Assembly: GCA_016177845.1 (NCBI GenBank)
Contig: JACOUO010000028.1
Coordinates: 62,001-126,000, forward strand
Source: Deltaproteobacteria bacterium
Lineage (GTDB): Bacteria; Desulfobacterota; GWC2-55-46
DNA length: 64,000 nt
Direction: 5' to 3'
The notes under the pieces are model-generated. The model saw nothing but the letters and a program-made list of their open reading frames with translations, was not told the origin of the DNA and searched no databases. Each line of letters starts with the position of its first letter. Positions within the stretch are counted from its first letter, which is position 1. The translations under genes were made by a program, and so were the position numbers. Of this stretch, positions 26,184 through 56,280 are shown in pieces.

Positions 26184-26867
26184 CTATTCAATAATGATGG
26201 ATAAGTTTCCTTTGCCTGTTTGAGAAACTATGCTTAGGCTGCCCTGCCCGCTCTGGCCGAGATAACTGTAATTCCCGATACCGGTCTGCTCAAGTATTGC
26301 AATGTGCCCGATGCCTGTCTGCACCTGCTGGGCGCTATTTAAGATTCCGGACTGAAAAATCCCGGCATCATTGCCAAACCCAGCCTGCACCTGAACAGCC
26401 GAATTCATGGAGCCTTCCTGGCTGATGTTCGCTAAGTTCAGTGTTCCGAATTGTGACTGATAAGAATAGTTCAGATTTTCTTCCATATTTATAAGGGAAA
26501 TATTTCCGCTTCCCTGCTGACTTTGGCGCGCCTGGTTCCAGTCGCCTTCCTGATATATAAAAGCAAAATTGGAGAGACTGCCGTCATTGTACTGGTACTG
26601 CTCTGCTGAATTTTCAGAGCCCTTCTGTGCTATTGCACCGCTATTAACGGAGTCCGCGTAAGCTCCGCTCTGTTCCTGATATGCGTAATTGGCGTCTCCA
26701 ATCTGATCTATGTTCCCGTATTGAGAGCCGTACTGCGCCTGCTCCGCATGGCCATGTTCTGAATCCCCGTACTGATAGACCTCAGAATAATCATCTGAGG
26801 CAAACGAAAGCTGAGGGACTGACAGTATTAAAATGAGAGGCACTATAAGGAAAAGACCATTGTTCAT
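26184..26867 (-). CDS. Curlin-repeat amyloid subunit (third, smallest)
   Basis: A 227-residue secreted protein: signal peptide to about residue 23 (LSFASDD), then repeated strands of the curlin type Q-x-G-x2-N-x-A/S-x3-Q. Repeats are less regular than in the two upstream subunits, with acidic residues (INMEENLNYSYQ) and a His-containing start (DSEHGHAEQ). It may be a minor or nucleating subunit like CsgB, or a capping variant. It follows a terminator-like hairpin (26894-26919), suggesting lower expression than the upstream copy. Secretion would be through the CsgG pore at 28886-30070. Confidence 0.8.
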   Translation of the reverse strand: MNNGLFLIVPLILILSVPQLSFASDDYSEVYQYGDSEHGHAEQAQYGSQYGNIDQIGDANYAYQEQSGAYADSVNSGAIAQKGSENSAEQYQYNDGSLSNFAFIYQEGDWNQARQSQQGSGNISLINMEENLNYSYQSQFGTLNLANISQEGSMNSAVQVQAGFGNDAGIFQSGILNSAQQVQTGIGHIAILEQTGIGNYSYLGQSGQGSLSIVSQTGKGNLSIIIE

Positions 26868-26893
26868 CAGCTACTCCGTCTTAAAAAAACAGT

Positions 26894-26919
26894 AGGCAGC
26901 CCTCTCTTGAGGGCTGCCT
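26894..26919 (-). terminator. Stem-loop between curlin genes (attenuator/terminator)
   Basis: AGGCAGCCCTC (26894-26904) pairs perfectly with GAGGGCTGCCT (26909-26919) around a 4-base loop. On the minus strand it is followed after 4 bases by a run of seven T. It lies between the second and third curlin genes and could reduce read-through to the third. Confidence 0.75.
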
Positions 26920-26931
26920 TGTAAAATCAGA

Positions 26932-27807
26932 TTACCACTGTAATACTGATGCTGTGTTGCCTGAGCCAAGCTGTGATACCGTGCTTGTATTGTATGAACC
27001 TATCTGTGTCTGGGCCGATGTATTCAAAGAGCCTATCTGTGAAACCATGGCGATGTTATAACTGCCTACCTGTGTCTGTGTTGCTACATTGTAATCGCCA
27101 AGCTGGGCAAGGACCTCAGCGTAGTTATTATCGCCTATCTGCGACTGTGTGGCTAAGTTGCCATTGCCTGTCTGGTATTCGACTTCAGCTTCGTTGAATG
27201 ACCCGAGCTGATAGATCTCGCTGTAGTTCCCAATGCCGCCCTGGTATTCTATTTCCGCGTCGTTATTGCTTCCAATCTGCGTCATTGTTGAGACGTTGCC
27301 TATGCCGTCCTGGCCGAACTCTATCTCAGCTTCATTGAACGCTCCTGTCTGGCTTACGGTAGAAATGTTTGAATATCCGTACTGTTTCTGGTAAGCGGTG
27401 TTGAGTGCGCCTGTCTGTGAGACGACGGCGAGGTTATCAGTTCCGACCTGTGTCTGTTCCGCGTAGTTGAATGACCCGTTCTGCGCGATGAAGGCGTTAT
27501 TTGTATGATAGCCGTACTGGTCCTGTGACTGTGTAGCAGTATTGAAATCGCCTGTCTGGGCTATTTCCGCATAGTTTGAGATCTGGCCTGCGTCAAGGTT
27601 TGTGCCTGACTGTACCTGTGAAGCCTGGTTGCCTGCGCCGTCCTGTGTGATTATCGCGCTCTGGTACTGTCCGCCGCCGTTTACGGGAGAGGCGTTTGTG
27701 TAGCCTAATGCCGGGGCTACGAATTCATCGCCTAAATCATCTGCGTGTGCGAACCCGCCGTATGCGACAACTGATGTGATCATTGCGGCCATCAAAAATC
27801 TTTTCAT
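26932..27807 (-). CDS. Curlin-repeat major amyloid subunit (second)
   Basis: A 291-residue secreted protein with signal peptide ending near GFAHADD. The rest is Gln/Asn-rich tandem curlin repeats, period ~22 residues, of the form Q-x-G-x-x-N-x-A (for example SQTGALNTAYQKQYG). About ten repeats are present, versus five in E. coli CsgA, so the predicted beta-solenoid is roughly twice as long. Several copies carry Glu in place of Ala or Thr (FNEAEIEFGQ, NNDAEIEYQ), giving an acidic face in the middle of the protein. AGGAGG ribosome site precedes the ATG. Probably the main fibre subunit together with the gene upstream. Confidence 0.87.
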   Translation of the reverse strand: MKRFLMAAMITSVVAYGGFAHADDLGDEFVAPALGYTNASPVNGGGQYQSAIITQDGAGNQASQVQSGTNLDAGQISNYAEIAQTGDFNTATQSQDQYGYHTNNAFIAQNGSFNYAEQTQVGTDNLAVVSQTGALNTAYQKQYGYSNISTVSQTGAFNEAEIEFGQDGIGNVSTMTQIGSNNDAEIEYQGGIGNYSEIYQLGSFNEAEVEYQTGNGNLATQSQIGDNNYAEVLAQLGDYNVATQTQVGSYNIAMVSQIGSLNTSAQTQIGSYNTSTVSQLGSGNTASVLQW

Positions 27808-27855
27808 AACTCCTCCTTAGGGGTTTTTATTTTGGGCAGCCTGATTGCCGCCGGA

Positions 27856-28791
27856 TTACCATTGCGTTACATTGGCGATATTGCCTGTTCCGGTCTGTGT
27901 TACATAGCTTGTGTTGTAAGAACCGTTCTGGGTCTGCACTATTGTATTGCTATAGCCAGTCTGCGAAGCTACAGCGATGTTGCCGATGCCTGTCTGTATC
28001 TGGGTGGCGGAGTTAAGATCACCCAACTGGTATATAGAGGCAGAGTTCGCTGTTCCAGCCTGCAGCTGTGTTGCGGTATTTCCGGTTCCTACCTGCATGA
28101 CAGAGGCTTCGTTTAAGGAGCCGAGCTGAATGGTACTTGCGGTATTCAGGTCGCCGTACTGCTCCTGCGCGACAGTGTTGCCAAACCCGCTCTGGTTTAT
28201 CACGCCGCTGTTGAAGTTCCCCTCCTGGTACTGATAGGCATAGTTAAAGCCGCCTGCCAGACCCCCCTGTATTATCTGCGCGTAATTTCCTGTGCCTACC
28301 TGGTATTCCATGGCAGTGTCATAGTCCATTTGGGAGATTTCGCCGTAGTTATAATCTCCTATGACCACTCGCTCAACAGCCCTGCCTGTGCCTACCTGAA
28401 TGATGCTCCCGTAGTTCCATGAGCCGACCTGAGTCTGAAGAGCGTAATTATAATCGCCTACCTGGTCAATAGTAGCGTAGTTGCTCCCGTTCCCTGTCTG
28501 CACCTGGTTCTGTTCCGCGGAGTTGAAATAACCTGTCTGGTTTATCTCCGCGTAGTTTGACAGACCGCTTGCGGATGCGCCTGACTGGTCCTGGTAAGCA
28601 TAGTTGCCCGCGCCCAACTGATTGATGACCGCGCTCTGGTAACTGTCATACTGCACCTGTTCGGCATAGTTCGGATTAACGGAGTCTTCGCCGAACTGGT
28701 TAATTACAGAGGTGTTGCTGTCGGCATTAGCAAGCCCCGCCAAGCCTGTGAAAACCGATAAAGCCGCTGCGAAAAATAATTTCCTCTTCAT
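27856..28791 (-). CDS. Curlin-repeat major amyloid subunit (first)
   Basis: A 311-residue secreted protein with a signal peptide ending near LANADSN, then about eleven curlin repeats. The last five are very regular (GLNTASTIQLG, SLNEASVMQVG, TGNTATQLQAG and so on), the middle ones deviate (YGEISQMDYDTAMEYQVG). It ends with the same NIANVTQW-like terminus as its neighbour (SVLQW), a shared C-terminal Gln-Trp. Ribosome site is AGGAGG. It is the first curlin gene after csgG in the operon. Equivalent to CsgA or CsgB; the two roles cannot be separated by sequence alone. Confidence 0.87.
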   Translation of the reverse strand: MKRKLFFAAALSVFTGLAGLANADSNTSVINQFGEDSVNPNYAEQVQYDSYQSAVINQLGAGNYAYQDQSGASASGLSNYAEINQTGYFNSAEQNQVQTGNGSNYATIDQVGDYNYALQTQVGSWNYGSIIQVGTGRAVERVVIGDYNYGEISQMDYDTAMEYQVGTGNYAQIIQGGLAGGFNYAYQYQEGNFNSGVINQSGFGNTVAQEQYGDLNTASTIQLGSLNEASVMQVGTGNTATQLQAGTANSASIYQLGDLNSATQIQTGIGNIAVASQTGYSNTIVQTQNGSYNTSYVTQTGTGNIANVTQW

Positions 28792-28885: not shown

Positions 28886-30070
28886 TCATTCCTGAGTTGA
28901 TTCGATAACTTTTTCCTCTGTTGCTATGCTTTCAAAGGAAGGCTCATCTTTTGTCTGTGTCTGCTCTATAGCCTTCTCAAACGGGATCTTATTTTCCTGA
29001 GTCTTTTGCATGAACGCATTTTTTACTTGTGCTTTTTTGACAGATGTTACATTTTCACGGCTTTGTTTTTTCTCATCTTCTCTTGCGTTCTCATCCTCCT
29101 TGGGCCAGAAAACCTTCCAGAATGGTTTTACCTGTCTATTATCAACTTCGACCTTTTCATTTTTGGCTTTTTTGATTTTGCCTCCGTCCTCAGGCCAGAA
29201 GACTTCCCAGAACGGTTTTACATCCTGGTCTTCAGGCAGATAGCTCGGAGTCTCGGTCACAAGGAGCTTGTCAAAATACGGCGCATCCTCAGGCCTTGAG
29301 GGCTCCCATAAGCCGCTTTTCACACCCCTTGCTATCAGCATAGAGACCGCTGTCTCTATGGCTTCCCTGACTGCCATTTGGACAGGCTCGTTATTCGTTA
29401 CCCCTATCTCCACTTCAAGGAGCCTGTTTGTCTTTACAAACCTGAAGACTCCGAAATCCGCTTCATAGCTTAAAATCCTTTTTGATACGCTCACCGTATC
29501 AACGACCATGCCTGTTGTTACTCTTACCAGCCTTAAGTCTATGACAGCGGAGGCGATGCTTACCTTTGTGTTAGGGCCGACTCCGAAGTATTTGATACCA
29601 ACTCCGCCGGTTACGATATTTTCATTGAACTCTGTGATGCCGCCCTCGATTATGAATTCGGGCAGCAAAAGATTCTGCTCTACATTCGTATCTTTGCCCA
29701 TGAAACCAAGCTTCTGCTTAAGTATCTTCTGCTCTGTCAGGAGGTCTCCCAGCCCCTCGCGCTCTGCCATCAGGAACCAGCCGCTGTCAAGGGCGGCCTT
29801 TATGACCATGGGGGTTGAGCCTTGAGTGACAGCAGTTGAGAACGATGTGGCAGTAGGGTGGAACTTATACTGTCCGGTCATGTCTTTGGTCTTATATACG
29901 GTTACGGATATCTTTCTCTTCGGGGGAGGTATCTTTGTGAGATTCTCGGTAACAGGCGTCAAATTCTCAAGCGCCCTGGTCTGCTTTACCTGTCTCCAGC
30001 CCGCGCATCCCGAAAAGAACAAGCCCAGGCTCAACATCAAAACAAGAAAGGAAATTTTTCGACTCAGCAT
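28886..30070 (-). CDS. csgG: Curli secretion pore lipoprotein CsgG with extra C-terminal tail
   Basis: A 394-residue lipoprotein with lipobox LFFSGC (Cys22). Residues ~40-255 match CsgG (ISVTVYKTKDMTGQYK, later VKTNRLLEVEIGVTNNEPVQMAVREAIE split across the pore-facing core). CsgG forms a nonameric outer-membrane channel for curlin subunits. E. coli CsgG ends at about 277 residues; here a ~125-residue charged tail follows, holding two copies of an aromatic motif, VKPFWEVFWPE (284-294) and VKPFWKVFWPK (314-324), then a Lys/Glu-rich, coiled-coil-prone end. The tail is expected on the periplasmic side. Confidence 0.88.
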   Translation of the reverse strand: MLSRKISFLVLMLSLGLFFSGCAGWRQVKQTRALENLTPVTENLTKIPPPKRKISVTVYKTKDMTGQYKFHPTATSFSTAVTQGSTPMVIKAALDSGWFLMAEREGLGDLLTEQKILKQKLGFMGKDTNVEQNLLLPEFIIEGGITEFNENIVTGGVGIKYFGVGPNTKVSIASAVIDLRLVRVTTGMVVDTVSVSKRILSYEADFGVFRFVKTNRLLEVEIGVTNNEPVQMAVREAIETAVSMLIARGVKSGLWEPSRPEDAPYFDKLLVTETPSYLPEDQDVKPFWEVFWPEDGGKIKKAKNEKVEVDNRQVKPFWKVFWPKEDENAREDEKKQSRENVTSVKKAQVKNAFMQKTQENKIPFEKAIEQTQTKDEPSFESIATEEKVIESTQE

Positions 30071-30633: not shown

Positions 30634-31248
30634 TCAGTTATTTTCTGAGAGGAGCGGCTGGAGGTATATCGCAAGCTTTACACGGGTCTTTACATCGGAT
30701 TTTTTATATATCCTGTTCAGGTGAGCCTTGATGGTCTGCTCGCTGAGAGAAAGCATGTTTGCTATCTCCTTATTGCTTTTGCCTTCAATTACATATTTTG
30801 CAATTTCAAGCTCCCTTTTCGAAAGCACTATCTTCTTGGCGTTTGCTGCGCTTTCCGACTGAGACCAGACTTCGGAAAATATGCTCTTTATGGATTTTCT
30901 CTCTATCCATAATTCGCCGTCCTTTACTGCCCTGATAGCTTTTTTAAGAAAAAGAGGGGTCGTCCACGGCGGAATCAGGCCTGCCACATTCCCGCTTGAG
31001 AACAGGTTCAGGAGTTCCTGCTCCCTTGAGTCCAATACAAGCGCCTTTACCTGAGTATCCTTAAGCGCCGGGAGGATATCGGCAAGCATCGGGGTCTCTA
31101 CGAGCATCACATCGGCCCCGTTCTTTACAGCAATTTCAGCCCCCTCGCCATAGGAATTTACGACCTCTATCTCGTTATCGTCTCCAAGAAGCGATCTTAT
31201 GCCCTCGCTGAAAAGAAGATGGCTGCAGAGAATACCGACCTTGATCAT
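30634..31248 (-). CDS. LuxR-family response-regulator-like transcription factor, CsgD analogue
   Basis: A 204-residue protein. The N-terminal ~120 residues resemble a receiver domain that lacks the full acidic pocket, and the C-terminus (~140-200) is a LuxR/FixJ helix-turn-helix (LSKRELEIAKYVIEGKSNKEIANMLSLSEQTIKAHL in pieces: SKRELEIAKYVIEG and NKEIANMLSLSEQTIKAHL). CsgD of E. coli has the same architecture with a degenerate receiver and activates curli genes. The place between csgE and csgF supports that role. It is not a close CsgD homologue, so the symbol is left out. Confidence 0.82.
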   Translation of the reverse strand: MIKVGILCSHLLFSEGIRSLLGDDNEIEVVNSYGEGAEIAVKNGADVMLVETPMLADILPALKDTQVKALVLDSREQELLNLFSSGNVAGLIPPWTTPLFLKKAIRAVKDGELWIERKSIKSIFSEVWSQSESAANAKKIVLSKRELEIAKYVIEGKSNKEIANMLSLSEQTIKAHLNRIYKKSDVKTRVKLAIYLQPLLSENN

Positions 31249-31778: not shown

Positions 31779-33419
31779 TCAGCGCCTTCTCGATCTCCCG
31801 GAATCTCCCCCAGCCCTCGGTTTAGCCGGAGCTACCGCGATCTTCCTGCCCGAGATTATGGACTGGTGCATGAACTCGATAACCTGCTCAGCAGCATCCC
31901 TCGGGACCTCGACAAAGGTGAATGTATCGAATATATTGATTCCCTTTATCGCCTGCTTTGGGATATTGGCCTTTCTTGTGATGGCGTTTATGATATCGCC
32001 TGCCTTTATATTCTGCTCCTTGCCGATGGTCATGAAGAGCCTTGCCATGCCCGGAGCCGCCCCTGTATCATCGAGAGATATCTCTTCGCGATTCGATTCA
32101 TGGGCTGTTTCGGGATTGCCGACACCTTCAAGCTGGAACTTAAGGAGCGCTGCTATCGCGCTCATCGGCTCGACCTCTTCGGTAAGCCTGCCTGCAAGGC
32201 TTAAGAACCTGTCAAATTTCTTATCATCGATAAATTCGTCTATCTTCACTTTCAGATTTGAAAAGCGTGATATCATTACTTCCTCTTTTGAAGGAAGCTT
32301 TCCTCTTTTTATTGTTGCTTTTGATACTGACATGATCAACCTTAATTGCTTTTCCTCTCTCGGCGTGACAAATGTTATGGCCACACCTTCCCTGCCTGCC
32401 CTTCCCGTCCTTCCTATCCTGTGCACATAAGACTCAGGGTTCTGAGGGATTGAATAGTTTACTACATGGGATATATTGCTGATATCAAGGCCCCTTGCGG
32501 CGACATCGGTTGCCACAAGCACATCTATCCTTGAGTTCTTGAACTTCTTAAGTACGGCTTCCCTCTGTGCCTGGGTGAAGTCGCCGTGCATTGCGTCAGC
32601 CTCATAACCGCGGAGCTTAAGGTGCGAGGCAACCTCATCCACCTCTCTCTTGGTATGACAGAATACGAGGAACACTCCTCCGTCATCCGCGTCGATAAGC
32701 CTTGAGAGCGCGTCTACCTTGGCGTCATTGCGCACTTCATAAAATATCTGGTTTATCTTGGGGGCGGTAAGCGCGTCTGAAGCTATCCTTATCTTTTCAG
32801 GGGTCTTCATGTAGCGCTTGGAGATTCTTAATATCGCCTCAGGCATTGTGGCCGAGAATAAAAGGGTCTGCCTGCTCGCGGGCGTCTCGTTCATTATCCT
32901 TGTGATGTCATCGACAAAGCCCATGTCAAGCATCTCATCGGCCTCATCAAGAACAGCAATGCTTACATTCTTAAGCGAAAGGGTCTTCCTTTCTATGTGG
33001 TCAAGGACCCTTCCCGGCGTGCCGACCACGACCTGAACGCCTTTCTGCAGCGCCTTAATCTGCCTCTCAATCGATGTGCCGCCGTAAACAGGTATTGCCT
33101 GAATCCTTTTATATTGGCCTATCTTGTTCATCTCTTCAGCGGCCTGTATGGCAAGCTCCCTTGTAGGAGCAAGTATTAACGCCTGCACTCCATGTACGGA
33201 ACGGTCAACCTTTTCAATGATGGGAATACCGAATGCCGCTGTTTTGCCTGTGCCTGTCTGTGCCTGCCCGATGACATCCTTGCCTGACAAAAGCACAGGG
33301 ATAGTCTTTTCCTGAATGGGCGTCGGCTCCTCAAAGCCCATCGCGGATACCGCTTTCAATACCTCATTGCTTAGATCAAAATCCCGAAATGTAATGCTAC
33401 TCTTTACAGTCTTTTCCAA
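31779..33419 (-). CDS. DEAD-box ATP-dependent RNA helicase (CsdA/DeaD type)
   Basis: A 546-residue helicase. Motifs seen: Q-motif F..PTPIQEKTIP, motif I AQTGTGKT, Ia APTRELAIQ, II VLDEADEM, III SAT, and motif VI HRIGRTGRAGREG. The C-terminal ~75 residues match the RNA-binding DbpA/CsdA RRM-like domain (INAITRKANIPKQAIKGINIF), followed by a basic Arg-rich tail (GDSGRSRRR). It should unwind structured RNA, in ribosome assembly or cold adaptation. It lies directly downstream of the tiny-gene array on the same strand, separated by ~200 bp. Confidence 0.9.
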   Translation of the reverse strand: MEKTVKSSITFRDFDLSNEVLKAVSAMGFEEPTPIQEKTIPVLLSGKDVIGQAQTGTGKTAAFGIPIIEKVDRSVHGVQALILAPTRELAIQAAEEMNKIGQYKRIQAIPVYGGTSIERQIKALQKGVQVVVGTPGRVLDHIERKTLSLKNVSIAVLDEADEMLDMGFVDDITRIMNETPASRQTLLFSATMPEAILRISKRYMKTPEKIRIASDALTAPKINQIFYEVRNDAKVDALSRLIDADDGGVFLVFCHTKREVDEVASHLKLRGYEADAMHGDFTQAQREAVLKKFKNSRIDVLVATDVAARGLDISNISHVVNYSIPQNPESYVHRIGRTGRAGREGVAITFVTPREEKQLRLIMSVSKATIKRGKLPSKEEVMISRFSNLKVKIDEFIDDKKFDRFLSLAGRLTEEVEPMSAIAALLKFQLEGVGNPETAHESNREEISLDDTGAAPGMARLFMTIGKEQNIKAGDIINAITRKANIPKQAIKGINIFDTFTFVEVPRDAAEQVIEFMHQSIISGRKIAVAPAKPRAGGDSGRSRRR

Positions 33420-33625: not shown

Positions 33626-33715
33626 TTAAAGGATAGAGCCGCCGTAGATGGCAAATACAAGAGCTGCGGTTGTAAGCACAGCGAAGAGTTCTCCTATTAA
33701 TTTAAACCTGTTCAT
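33626..33715 (-). CDS. Tiny single-helix membrane peptide, array member 1 (29 aa)
   Basis: ATG at 33715 to TAA at 33626, with a GGAGGT ribosome site 8 bp upstream. The peptide has a short basic N-terminus (MNRFK), then one hydrophobic helix of ~20 residues and a Gly-Gly containing end. It carries the family Glu at position 9 (GELFAVL), but the Asn found four residues later in the other six members is Val here, so it is the most divergent copy. It lies 31 bp after the stop of member 2 and has no promoter of its own, so the two are probably one transcript. Confidence 0.65.
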   Translation of the reverse strand: MNRFKLIGELFAVLTTAALVFAIYGGSIL

Positions 33716-33746
33716 TTTCAATACCTCCATTACTGTCAGACCCTGT

Positions 33747-33827
33747 TCAGATGATTACAGCCGCAATGATCACTACGATTACGGCGAGATTTGCCACTGC
33801 CTCGAAAATTTCGTTCATTCCATTCAT
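33747..33827 (-). CDS. Tiny single-helix membrane peptide, array member 2 (26 aa)
   Basis: ATG at 33827 to TGA at 33747, with AAGGAG 8-13 bp upstream. The N-terminus is polar (MNGMNEIF), then E9-x3-N13 and an uninterrupted hydrophobic run (LAVIVVIIAAVII) that ends the protein. At 26 residues it is the shortest member. A conserved promoter element precedes it at 33878-33910. The peptide should insert as one transmembrane or membrane-surface helix. No homologue is known to me. Confidence 0.75.
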   Translation of the reverse strand: MNGMNEIFEAVANLAVIVVIIAAVII

Positions 33828-33877
33828 ATTCTTTCTCCTTTCTTTTTTGAAAAAGGCGTAACCCATTTTCTGATTCC

Positions 33878-33910
33878 ATTATACCTGTTCCAAATTAAGG
33901 GATTATTAGA
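33878..33910 (-). promoter_or_regulatory. Conserved array promoter element, copy A
   Basis: Minus strand: TCTAATAATCC, 1 bp, TTAATTT, 8 bp, perfect -10 TATAAT (33878-33883), then GGA. The -35 position holds no TTGACA; the TCTAATAATCC block sits there instead. It lies ~50 bp upstream of array member 2. Confidence 0.7.
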
Positions 33911-33975
33911 TTCGCCCCAAAAGGCGGGATTGCGCAGAGCACCCATGAAAGGAGAAAGGAATCAGAGGGAAAAGC

Positions 33976-33996
33976 AGGGAGGCTTTTCGCCTCCCT
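33976..33996 (-). terminator. Stem-loop after array member 3
   Basis: AGGGAGGC (33976-33983) pairs with GCCTCCCT (33989-33996) across a 5-base loop. It lies 34 bp after the member 3 stop; the minus-strand T tract (GCTTTTCC) is short but consistent with an intrinsic terminator. Confidence 0.65.
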
Positions 33997-34029
33997 CGAT
34001 TTCGCGTTAGGTTTTCCCTGTTGTGGAGA

Positions 34030-34119
34030 TTATGCGGAGGCAACGACCGAGGCTATAAGAAGGATTGCTACGCAAAGGTTCGCGAAAATCTCCACAAGGT
34101 GGTATGCGGTCAATTTCAT
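34030..34119 (-). CDS. Tiny single-helix membrane peptide, array member 3 (29 aa)
   Basis: ATG at 34119 to TAA at 34030 with a GGGAGG ribosome site 7-12 bp upstream. The N-terminus (MKLTAYHLV) is followed by E10-x3-N14 in EIFANL and a hydrophobic helix with one Cys (LCVAILLIASVVASA). Its promoter differs from that of other members: a sigma-70-like pair at 34162-34189. Its own terminator follows, so it is a single-gene transcript. Confidence 0.75.
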   Translation of the reverse strand: MKLTAYHLVEIFANLCVAILLIASVVASA

Positions 34120-34161
34120 TTGAATACCTCCCGGTTAGTGTTTTCTAAACCTTAATAATAA

Positions 34162-34189
34162 ACTATAGCAGAAGAAATCCCGCCTGCAA
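34162..34189 (-). promoter_or_regulatory. Sigma-70-like promoter of array member 3
   Basis: Minus strand TTGCAG (34184-34189), 16-bp spacer, TATAGT (34162-34167). This copy lacks the TCTAATAATCC block of its neighbours, so member 3 may be expressed under different conditions. Confidence 0.55.
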
Positions 34190-34230
34190 CTTTTTCGGTG
34201 TTTTTTTTAAAAAACGCAGAAAATGCAGCG

Positions 34231-34256
34231 CGCGCTTCACTCGGTTCGCAATGACA
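34231..34256 (-). repeat. Fragment of a dispersed TGTCATTGCGAAC-type repeat
   Basis: The minus strand reads TGTCATTGCGAACCGAGTGA followed by AGCGCG. This resembles the core of small dispersed palindromic repeats seen between genes in many bacterial genomes. Only this one copy is noticed in the window; identification is by memory of the pattern, not a search. Confidence 0.4.
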
Positions 34257-34307
34257 TACACTCCCTCTTCAAGGGTTTTGCGCAGCGGGCAGCATGATAA
34301 TAAAAAA

Positions 34308-34337
34308 GCGGGGAGGCCCCGTTTTGAGCCTCCCCGC
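34308..34337 (-). terminator. Intrinsic terminator after array member 4
   Basis: GCGGGGAGGC (34308-34317) pairs perfectly with GCCTCCCCGC (34328-34337). The minus-strand T tract is the six A at 34302-34307. It lies 20 bp after the stop of member 4: a strong intrinsic terminator. Confidence 0.9.
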
Positions 34338-34356
34338 CATCTTCAGTTTTTTTATT

Positions 34357-34440
34357 TTATGATAACGCTACTGCTGACACCAATACAAGAACAAGCGCCA
34401 GGTTTGTGAATATCTCGAAGAATTCATTGGTCTTTGTCAT
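34357..34440 (-). CDS. Tiny single-helix membrane peptide, array member 4 (27 aa)
   Basis: ATG at 34440 to TAA at 34357, with GGGAGGG about 10 bp upstream. N-terminus MTKTNEFF, then E9-x3-N13 (EIFTNL) and a Leu/Val-rich helix (ALVLVLVSAVALS). It has both a promoter element of the array type (34487-34519) and a strong terminator directly after it, making a compact independent unit of about 180 bp. Confidence 0.8.
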   Translation of the reverse strand: MTKTNEFFEIFTNLALVLVLVSAVALS

Positions 34441-34486
34441 GGCTTGTGCCCTCCCCGGTTTGGTTTTGAACTTCAGTTACAACTCC

Positions 34487-34519
34487 ATTATATCTACGGC
34501 GCATTAGAAGGAGATTAAA
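34487..34519 (-). promoter_or_regulatory. Conserved array promoter element, copy B (diverged)
   Basis: Perfect TATAAT (34487-34492) followed by GGAG, with TTTAAT and CTAAT blocks upstream at the same spacing as the other copies (27 bp from block start to -10). The TAAT pair spacing is kept although the rest is changed. It abuts the stop codon of array member 5. Confidence 0.55.
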
Positions 34520-34612
34520 TTACCCGATGGAAACTACATTCGAGATTATTATTACGACCACCGCCAAATTCAGCACAATCTCGATATAATCGTTTACCTT
34601 GCGGCTTCTCAC
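34520..34612 (-). CDS. Tiny single-helix membrane peptide, array member 5 (30 aa)
   Basis: GTG at 34612 to TAA at 34520; the start is set by a full AGGAGGT site ending 6 bp upstream. The N-terminus is basic (RSRKVNDY), followed by E11-x3-N15 (EIVLNL) and the helix AVVVIIISNVVSIG. It is the only member with a GTG start, which suggests tuned translation. A possible -10 (TAAAAT, 34658-34663) lies upstream but without the conserved upstream block. No terminator separates it from the promoter of member 4. Confidence 0.75.
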   Translation of the reverse strand: MRSRKVNDYIEIVLNLAVVVIIISNVVSIG

Positions 34613-34728
34613 TGCAACACCTCCTGATTAATCTTAAGATCCAAAAACTAATCATGGATTTTACACGAAAGGGAGCTTAGGGGGCTGTGAGTTTTGCTAC
34701 AGGGGATTTTTTATTTTTCATATGGCGC

Positions 34729-34885
34729 AAAAAAGGCGAGGAGGCCCGGAGGCCTCCTCGAATAGGCTGGATAGGGAGCGGGATAATTAAATCGGGGAAG
34801 TTTAGGAAGGTTATCCGCTGCAAAAGCCGCGGTAAGGTAGCAAATTTAAAAAGACCGAGCTGTTTTAAAAATCTGATTTTACTTT
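34729..34885 (-). ncRNA. Candidate small RNA or decayed array member (promoter and terminator, no frame)
   Basis: The minus strand has an array-type promoter (34892-34925) and, about 150 bp downstream, a strong terminator (stem 34737-34760, T tract 34729-34734). Between them there is no ATG or GTG frame with a ribosome site and no E-x3-N helix. Predicted RNA is ~150 nt from near 34885. It could be a regulatory RNA co-controlled with the peptides, or the remains of an eighth gene. Start and existence are inferred only from the flanking signals. Confidence 0.35.
34737..34760 (-). terminator. Intrinsic terminator of the orphan transcript
   Basis: CGAGGAGGCC (34737-34746) and GGCCTCCTCG (34751-34760) form a perfect 10-bp stem with a 4-base loop. 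Six A at 34729-34734 supply the minus-strand T tract. Confidence 0.88.
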
Positions 34886-34891
34886 ATTGCA

Positions 34892-34925
34892 ATTATAAAG
34901 AACTGAAGATTAAAGAATCATTAGA
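34892..34925 (-). promoter_or_regulatory. Conserved array promoter element, orphan copy
   Basis: Minus strand TCTAATGATTC, 1 bp, TTAATCT, 9 bp, TATAAT (34892-34897). It differs from copies A, C and D at three or four positions and has one extra spacer base. No tiny reading frame follows before the terminator at 34737-34760. Confidence 0.55.
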
Positions 34926-34946
34926 AAAGCTGTCCCGAACCGTTTT

Positions 34947-35042
34947 TTACAAAATCGCCCTGAAAAGAGTAACCAGTATCACCGAAACTACCATCACATT
35001 TACACCTACCTCAAGTACTGTTCCCATCTCTGCTTTTGCCAT
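34947..35042 (-). CDS. Tiny single-helix membrane peptide, array member 6 (31 aa)
   Basis: ATG at 35042 to TAA at 34947; AAGGAG lies 9 bp upstream. An in-frame ATG at 35063 would add seven residues but has no ribosome site. The peptide has E11-x3-N15 in EVGVNV, a helix MVVSVILVTL and, unlike other members, a charged C-terminal side (FRAIL). Conserved promoter copy C lies 35 bp upstream. Confidence 0.75.
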   Translation of the reverse strand: MAKAEMGTVLEVGVNVMVVSVILVTLFRAIL

Positions 35043-35076
35043 TTTTTTGTTCTCCTTATTCATTCTTTATGCCTCC

Positions 35077-35109
35077 ATTATACCTAACGCAAATTAAAGG
35101 ATTATTAGA
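35077..35109 (-). promoter_or_regulatory. Conserved array promoter element, copy C
   Basis: Minus strand TCTAATAATCC, T, TTAATTT, 8 bp, TATAAT (35077-35082), GGAG. Identical to copy A in both upstream blocks. The TAA stop of array member 7 is inside the TCTAATAATCC block, so the units are packed end to end. Confidence 0.7.
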
Positions 35110-35203
35110 AGCCGACCTTAATAATGGTTGAGACGATTATCACAAGGACTGTTACATTTACGAAGATCTCGAGCACCCCGTTTACATTCAGGCTCTTTTC
35201 CAT
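35105..35203 (-). CDS. Tiny single-helix membrane peptide, array member 7 (32 aa)
   Basis: ATG at 35203 to TAA at 35105 with AAGGAG ~11 bp upstream. N-terminus MEKSLNVNGVL, then E12-x3-N16 (EIFVNV), a Val/Ile-rich helix (TVLVIIVSTII) and a short KVGF end. It is the first gene of the array in transcription order and the longest member. Promoter copy D lies ~50 bp upstream. Confidence 0.78.
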   Translation of the reverse strand: MEKSLNVNGVLEIFVNVTVLVIIVSTIIKVGF

Positions 35204-35250
35204 TTTCTTTTTTCTCCTTTCTGTTTTAGCTCCGTTCAATTTACAACTCC

Positions 35251-35283
35251 ATTATACAAACTTAAAATTAACGGATTATTAGA
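35251..35283 (-). promoter_or_regulatory. Conserved array promoter element, copy D
   Basis: Minus strand TCTAATAATCC, G, TTAATTT, 8 bp, TATAAT (35251-35256), GGAG. Same upstream blocks as copies A and C while the 8-bp spacer differs, which points to selection on the blocks. Confidence 0.7.
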
Positions 35284-35363
35284 AAGAAAAGATTTTAGTT
35301 TTTTTGAAAGGAAATTTTTGCATGGGAGGGGATTGCTTGTAGACAACTACTTGATTTTATTAC

Positions 35364-56004: not shown

Positions 56005-56280
56005 TTAGAACTGGTCAACTACATAGCGTAAAGAGACAAGTATCAGATTCAATATGGAGATAAGAAGTACAGCTATGGTGGCGTGATACACATATTTATT
56101 CCTGCGTGATTCCCGGCCGGACAGGCCCTTTATAATGACATCGTGTATACTCGCCCTAAGCCAGCCCGTCATCCCCTGTATATCCCTTTTTTCTTCAAAA
56201 CGGCAGATAAGCTCCTCAAAGTATATATCGAGGATATTATCTACCTTTCGTTTTAGTTCATCCAATTCTTTCGGGTCCAT
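56005..56280 (-). CDS. Small protein with C-terminal membrane helix
   Basis: A 91-residue protein. The N-terminal half is charged and helical (LDELKRKVDNILDIYFEELICRFEEKRD-like, coiled-coil prone), the C-terminus has one membrane helix (HATIAVLLISILNLILVSLRY). No ribosome site is evident. It is not recognised; it might be a small membrane tether. It converges on the tRNA gene. Confidence 0.55.
   Translation of the reverse strand: MDPKELDELKRKVDNILDIYFEELICRFEEKRDIQGMTGWLRASIHDVIIKGLSGRESRRNKYVYHATIAVLLISILNLILVSLRYVVDQF

Follow-up and report, generated by a model that had tools for sequence, protein, structure and literature searches.

A micropeptide gene array behind a two-component-type promoter box in a Deltaproteobacteria bacterium: candidate regulon of one-helix membrane peptides

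We analysed a 64-kb stretch of a Deltaproteobacteria bacterium genome (64,000 nt of contig JACOUO010000028.1, here called the window), in which seven micropeptide genes follow one another on the minus strand between dinB and a DEAD-box RNA helicase gene. The closest described counterparts of their products are small membrane proteins induced by two-component regulators. PmrR of E. coli and Salmonella is a membrane peptide that inhibits LpxT and whose induction by PmrA runs through a PmrA box (PMC8129183, PMC3973317), and MgrB is a PhoP-induced membrane protein of 47 aa that inhibits PhoQ (PMC2789325, PMC8404706). Like PmrR, the array peptides appear to be short one-helix inner-membrane peptides, most of whose genes follow a tandem-repeat box that an OmpR/PhoB-family regulator probably recognises. 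However, PmrR is encoded by a single gene beside pmrAB, whereas here about 15 peptides are encoded in one genome, in an array and scattered; moreover, the regulator belongs to a different subfamily and the peptides have no profile match. With MgrB they share the probable character of regulator-induced small membrane proteins of a two-component regulon, but MgrB is a longer, single-copy protein with a periplasmic region, and again no profile match was obtained.

Two further modules resemble the regulatory side of the locus. In BqsRS/CarRS, an OmpR-family regulator is combined with a direct repeat; the BqsR operator is TTAAG-N6-TTAAG, with one pentamer overlapping the −35 region (PMC4682146). 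The DbfQRS module stands next to a PepSY protein (DbfQ; PMC12714742, PMC12666569), and a PepSY protein gene opens the regulator operon described below in G032 and G039, both from a sister family. No micropeptide array in the regulons of these modules is known to us (PMC4682146, PMC12714742, PMC12666569). In contrast to these modules, the operon studied here carries cytochrome b561, and the RExxE iron-sensing motif, which we looked for in its kinase, is absent.

Two groups of membrane-active peptides are also comparable. YohP of E. coli (27 aa), which lowers membrane fluidity and potential, is similar to the array peptides in size, in being a small membrane protein and in its stress-type induction (PMC12719787). 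Unlike the array, it is a single gene. To our knowledge, YohP has no signature of an acidic residue followed four positions later by a polar one. The type I toxins Ldr, Ibs, ZorO and TisB are also short hydrophobic peptides, sometimes occurring as tandem paralogues (PMC8309996), but the array shows no convincing antisense RNA or structured leader and has a shared activator-type promoter.

Our favoured explanation, to which we assign a probability of roughly 0.6, is that the array encodes two-component-induced inner-membrane micropeptides of an undescribed family, which form part of the regulon of one OmpR/PhoB-family regulator and act in a PmrR- or MgrB-like manner.

The micropeptide array and its family

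The genes, the selection acting on them, their family, its synteny, the shared promoter box and the link of this box to a regulator operon can be read from sequence comparison. A preliminary description of the window had listed seven head-to-tail minus-strand reading frames with ribosome sites, and we recovered them at 33626-35203, each preceded by a Shine-Dalgarno (SD)-like sequence. They were scored with a profile hidden Markov model (HMM) that was built from 18 peptides of other genomes only and scanned against 811 small open reading frames (ORFs) of the window.

35105..35203, minus: micropeptide gene 1, MEKSLNVNGVLEIFVNVTVLVIIVSTIIKVGF, 32 aa; HMM from other genomes, E value 1e-7
34947..35042, minus: micropeptide gene 2, MAKAEMGTVLEVGVNVMVVSVILVTLFRAIL, 31 aa; HMM E value 0.02, rank 6/811
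34520..34612, minus: micropeptide gene 3, MRSRKVNDYIEIVLNLAVVVIIISNVVSIG, 30 aa; GTG start, own promoter box not recognisable
34357..34440, minus: micropeptide gene 4, MTKTNEFFEIFTNLALVLVLVSAVALS, 27 aa; HMM E value 1e-8
34030..34119, minus: micropeptide gene 5, MKLTAYHLVEIFANLCVAILLIASVVASA, 29 aa; own promoter box not recognisable
33747..33827, minus: micropeptide gene 6, MNGMNEIFEAVANLAVIVVIIAAVII, 26 aa
33626..33715, minus: micropeptide gene 7, divergent, no Asn, MNRFKLIGELFAVLTTAALVFAIYGGSIL, 29 aa
35364..36614, minus: dinB, conserved neighbour upstream of the array (context)
31779..33419, minus: DEAD-box RNA helicase gene, conserved neighbour downstream of the array (context)

All seven peptides are 26-32 aa long, with a mean Kyte-Doolittle value of at least 2.1 over 16 residues and one predicted transmembrane helix each, and their frames are among 14 SD-preceded, strongly hydrophobic ORFs of 20-45 aa in the window. 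A further short hydrophobic ORF with an SD sequence lies at 56005-56091 (minus; MYHATIAVLLISILNLILVSLRYVVDQF) and has no promoter box. Gene 7 starts 31 nt past the end of gene 6. Glu with Asn at position +4 is found in six of the seven peptides; that of gene 7 retains the Glu at the helix start and lacks the Asn. Although identity to the gene 1 peptide is low (10-40%), the six E-x3-N peptides took ranks 1-6 of 811 in the HMM scan (E values 1e-8 to 0.02). The next ORF had an E value of 1.8 and a reversed control 1.4. The profile from other genomes thus picked first the same six peptides in which the preliminary description had seen the signature.

Using a profile of the array copies, we detected three clear family members elsewhere in the same genome (C18:167968, C20:53280 and C16:107812). 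With a profile of 26 members, matches appeared in 16 of the 30 genomes searched from the same taxonomic family, and the 33 other genomes of the class had none; across 395 sampled genomes of the phylum, matches were confined to that one taxonomic family. Relatives identified by dinB were 'Deltaproteobacteria bacterium' groundwater assemblies and UBA5799, several of which have peptides downstream of dinB. The order dinB, array, DEAD-box gene is kept in other genera (L122, L123, L136 and L139), i.e. the frames are conserved in relatives together with the surrounding genes. The last array peptide of L122 and L123 (GEILALLxA...) is the counterpart of gene 7 in position and layout. A second array type, found in one genus, comprises three or four tandem copies (e.g. 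MTRIFETVASLAVIVTLVAVSAINFVM) beside a ubiE-like methyltransferase gene. These copies are near-identical, with E-x3-S replacing E-x3-N, and have the same promoter box as the window array:

L119 1523-2064: ubiE-side array
L120 5777-6355: ubiE-side array
L124 4641-5036: ubiE-side array
L127 4226-4691: ubiE-side array

Among 39 curated members, the acidic residue (31 Glu, 8 Asp) always has Asn, His, Ser, Gln, Tyr or Thr at +4, His accounting for 11. Lys and Arg occur 65 times before the acidic residue and 10 times after it; this clustering of positive charges suggests that the N-terminus is inside. In 14 pairs of close relatives (385 codons), the proportions of synonymous (pS) and nonsynonymous (pN) differences were 0.34 and 0.094, and the ratio of nonsynonymous to synonymous substitution rates (dN/dS) was 0.22, which is somewhat too low since the pairs were picked by peptide similarity. 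Synonymous changes thus outnumber nonsynonymous ones, and the earlier proposal of a paralogous family under selection is borne out by this excess and by the orthologous arrays of other genera.

The statement that no known family comes to mind also held when libraries were searched. No family was matched in Pfam by four peptides (E values up to 0.1), in NCBIfam by nine (up to 10) or in PADLOC by eight, so that no anti-phage defence protein was hit, and a sequence search of the PDB gave no match. In PHROGs we found just two isolated, marginal single-member matches (E values 0.007 and 0.02). PmrR, MgrB, KdpF, CydX and other curated small-protein families of Pfam and NCBIfam were not matched either. 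The peptide family therefore appears to be undescribed in the libraries searched. No report of a regulon of this type was found in the open-access literature, which was the scope of this search.

A shared direct-repeat promoter box

The stretch holding the array had seemed otherwise empty. Instead, it contains five regulator-type promoters, three intrinsic terminators that set the array units apart, and one promoter-terminator unit without an ORF. Most family members have a common upstream element of two CTYTAAT copies 4 nt apart, followed after 10-11 nt by TATAAT or TATACT. Written as half-sites, this is a direct repeat [CT]TAAT-N6-[CT]TAAT with an 11-bp period, in the place of a normal −35 hexamer. 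Scores below are those of a position weight matrix (PWM).

35251..35284, minus: regulator-type promoter of gene 1, TTCTAAT-N4-CGTTAAT ... TATAAT; PWM 32.6
35077..35110, minus: regulator-type promoter of gene 2, over the gene 1 stop codon; PWM 35.3
34892..34926, minus: regulator-type promoter of the ORF-less unit; PWM 32.6
34737..34891, minus: possible small RNA of ~150 nt, no peptide ORF; intrinsic terminator at its end (stem 34760-34737)
34487..34520, minus: regulator-type promoter of gene 4, over the gene 3 stop codon; PWM 25.7
34307..34338, minus: intrinsic terminator after gene 4
33976..33996, minus: intrinsic terminator after gene 5
33878..33911, minus: regulator-type promoter of genes 6 and 7; PWM 31.7

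The five boxes of the window all lie within the array (scores 25.7-35.3), and the next best score in the window was 16.1; a first-order Markov model yields 0 boxes per Mb at a score of at least 20. Judged by its half-sites, the array box has the operator geometry of the BqsR/PmrA type (compare PMC4682146, PMC3973317). The leaders of the array mRNAs are 27-43 nt long and fold no better than shuffled sequences. LexA/SOS control of the TisB type, considered in view of the dinB/lexA neighbourhood, is unsupported because the shared element is the direct-repeat box, which in this window occurs only at the array. The 11-bp repeat at first resembled a Pho box; control by PhoB was rejected because the regulator linked to the box scored 196.7 with the NCBIfam PhoB model (cut-off 296.2) and its operon carries cytochrome b561.

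The box also leads to other genes. The box pattern was found at 10 sites in the genome (0 for reversed-pattern controls), 10 in a further search (2 for the controls) and 28 in nine relatives (1 for the control). Among 49 distinct DNA-pattern sites, 30 had a one-helix micro-ORF behind them, defined as an SD-preceded, strongly hydrophobic frame of 20-50 codons no more than 200 nt past the site, versus 41 of 4000 random positions (1%); the association within the same genome is partly circular, and 29 of the 49 sites are from other genomes, where it is the same. Many of these peptides fall outside the E-x3-N family and represent several unrelated sequence types: MDRELKVANRIY.../MEREKKIANAVY..., MKVFAADIAANLVV..., MQIKSNFTTSIVSF... 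(in tandem), and MNRTVDLVEFLIAIANL... with a partner MKISELYFPLAFILGQL.... The genome of the window holds about 15 micropeptide genes of several unrelated types. More box-driven types, unrelated to these, were seen at L234 1501-1900, L235 1501-1750, L220 1501-1860, L215 and L216; some are tandem pairs, and they recur in two genomes each or are duplicated in one. The box also stands before larger genes, namely TlpA/ResA-like ones, a DsbD_TM gene of the CcdA type and the operons with cytochrome b561. Since the box alone exposed several further types, it provides a practical finder for micropeptide genes, which are often overlooked by annotation pipelines owing to their size.

ORF-less units with a regulator-type promoter and an intrinsic terminator occur at 34737-34926 (minus) of the window and in relatives:

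L122 4433-4560: ORF-less unit
L123 6500-6677 (minus): ORF-less unit
L136 6288-6450: ORF-less unit
L221: ORF-less unit, in another family of the order, also with C-rich stretches

The RNA is conserved in L122, L123 and L136, with a near-invariant, anti-Shine-Dalgarno-like segment CTCCTTTCCACA, and possibly represents a regulator-driven small RNA. Rfam gave nothing near a gathering score for the array region or in relatives. Duplex energies of the RNA with the seven array leaders were within about 1.7 standard deviations of shuffles and not significant, and a role as type I antitoxin by leader pairing was rejected on this ground.

A candidate regulator operon linked to the box

In the same genome, a box precedes an operon for an exported-looking protein of 80 aa (no Pfam match), cytochrome b561, an OmpR/PhoB-family regulator encoded at L074:12052-12726 and a histidine kinase. 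We examined the regulator gene in 21 genomes of the order. In 20 of them, a box with a score of 18 or more lies upstream of it on the same strand, no farther than 1.5 kb away, and the best in the 21st scored 15.1; on the opposite strand, such a box was found in 1 of 21. This footprint covers several families, some without the peptides, and the box is therefore older than the peptide family. The best NCBIfam match of the regulator is the CopR/CzcR/SilR family, with 266.4 (cut-off 279.2), and that of the kinase is the partner family of the TIGR01387/TIGR01386 pair, with 274.6 (cut-off 292.55). Both thus fall just under the curated cut-offs of the CopRS/CzcRS-type heavy-metal two-component family. 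Among the genomes of genus g5, G029 combines the regulator with four peptides, and G004, G014, G021, G024 and G027 have neither.

In many relatives, a second conserved box follows just 3′ of the histidine kinase gene and precedes a gene of ~120 codons. Its product starts M-x-I-x-FD(L/V)-x-GTV-(F/L)-G and looks HAD-like by eye; the L074 copy has no Pfam match. The positions of this post-kinase box are:

L275 7571
L276 7535
L278 7455
L279 7370
L280 6672
L274 483 (minus)
L074 14303

Elsewhere in the window, three consecutive genes with N/Q/G-rich repeats (26184-28791, minus) appear by eye to be curlin-like (functional amyloid). According to the ORF list, a CsgG-like gene (28886-30070) lies nearby, as does the gene of a LuxR-type regulator (30634-31248).

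Possible modes of action

Binding by this regulator, induction, topology and membrane insertion are what we infer from the sequences. In the favoured explanation, the regulator would be encoded away from the array, in the cytochrome b561-regulator-histidine kinase operon. Upon activation of the kinase it would be phosphorylated, bind [CT]TAAT-N6-[CT]TAAT just upstream of the −10 region and recruit RNA polymerase. Short unstructured leaders and strong ribosome sites would allow efficient translation, and each peptide would be inserted as a single helix with its N-terminus inside. The acidic residue and the polar residue one turn on (E/D-x3-N/H/S) may form a polar face at the inner helix end that contacts partner helices. 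When the kinase senses redox, metal or envelope stress, the peptides would bind membrane proteins and tune or stabilise them, in a way similar to PmrR, MgrB or CydX, with paralogues of different faces serving different partners. Such a mode of action would be of a known kind, PmrR- or MgrB-like, multiplied, and we regard it as the most parsimonious model.

Several observations speak against this explanation. Genes 3 and 5 have no recognisable box, the selection of similar peptides favoured a low dN/dS, and the box matrix had been seeded with peptide promoters, mostly of the same genome. The association between regulator and peptides is loose across the family. In eight genomes the regulator is present but family members are absent, though one of these genomes (G003) has other box-driven micropeptides, and in G009, G012 and G019, which carry peptides, no regulator orthologue was found. 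The assemblies of G012 and G019 are fragmented or incomplete, but G009 is near complete and hence an unexplained exception. It has boxes and peptides (L120, L128), and its closest relative of the regulator shows 58% identity. Its regulator gene may possibly have been lost or left unassembled, or a paralogous regulator may have taken over. Finally, toxicity or a bulk effect on the membrane would also be conceivable for hydrophobic peptides of this size.

Action in bulk would mean that stress-induced peptides accumulate or oligomerise and alter fluidity and proton-motive force, leading to a protected low-activity state. YohP sets a precedent for this (PMC12719787), and abundant products would be in keeping with the large number of copies, the strong ribosome sites and a single inducible promoter type shared by the genes. 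We nevertheless consider it fairly unlikely, as specific contacts are favoured by the conserved acidic residue with a polar one a turn away and by the diversity of types, and the constraint seen in dN/dS is not needed for bulk action. It is unlikely, too, that the peptides serve membrane redox complexes (cytochrome b561, cytochrome c maturation) as small subunits or in assembly, co-regulated with them like CydX or KdpF. The box shared with the TlpA/ResA-like, CcdA-type and cytochrome b561 genes, the copy directly before ApbE and the His at +4 in some members would fit such a role, but most peptide genes lie apart from any operon for a complex, and beside ubiE several near-identical copies stand in tandem. 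Position +4 as a conserved haem ligand was rejected, because most members have Asn or Ser in place of His, and others Gln, Tyr or Thr.

Type I toxins, i.e. membrane-damaging peptides silenced by antisense or trans-acting small RNAs, appear to be the least likely of these functional roles, and we regard them as very unlikely here. Known type I loci also encode short hydrophobic peptides in tandem, and several arrays hold ORF-less box-driven RNAs with C-rich stretches, of which that at 34926-34737 could serve as the antitoxin. However, judged by sequence tests, this role is disfavoured because the leaders are short and unstructured, there is no convincing antisense promoter (one sigma70-like site on the antisense strand, 4.2 expected), and several copies have an activator-type promoter in common; nor do the duplexes of ORF-less RNA and leaders support it. 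That the frames arose by chance, their hydrophobic residues resulting from T-rich codons, and give no translated product is barely credible. They are very short and two lack promoter boxes, but recovery by the profile from other genomes, dN/dS, conserved synteny and the invariant acid-x3-polar signature contradict it. From the roles offered in the preliminary description, that of a regulatory peptide or subunit in the membrane is thus retained, the type I toxin is disfavoured and the signal peptide found no support. The shared promoter box, the likely regulator and the wider micropeptide set behind the box had been missed there.

More tentatively, and with considerable doubt, we suggest that the main output of this two-component system is a large and diversified set of one-helix micropeptides, which would form a combinatorial layer reprogramming many inner-membrane proteins simultaneously. 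No bacterial regulon consisting chiefly of one-helix membrane micropeptides is known to us. Membrane peptides induced by a regulator, PmrR and MgrB among them, have so far been known singly, whereas here a whole regulon appears to be largely made of them. If true, a two-component system that mainly puts out membrane micropeptides would be a categorically new kind of response. The arrays persist across genera while their sequences diverge and thus form a natural variant series, which lets one ask what a helix of 28 residues needs for recognition of its membrane partner.

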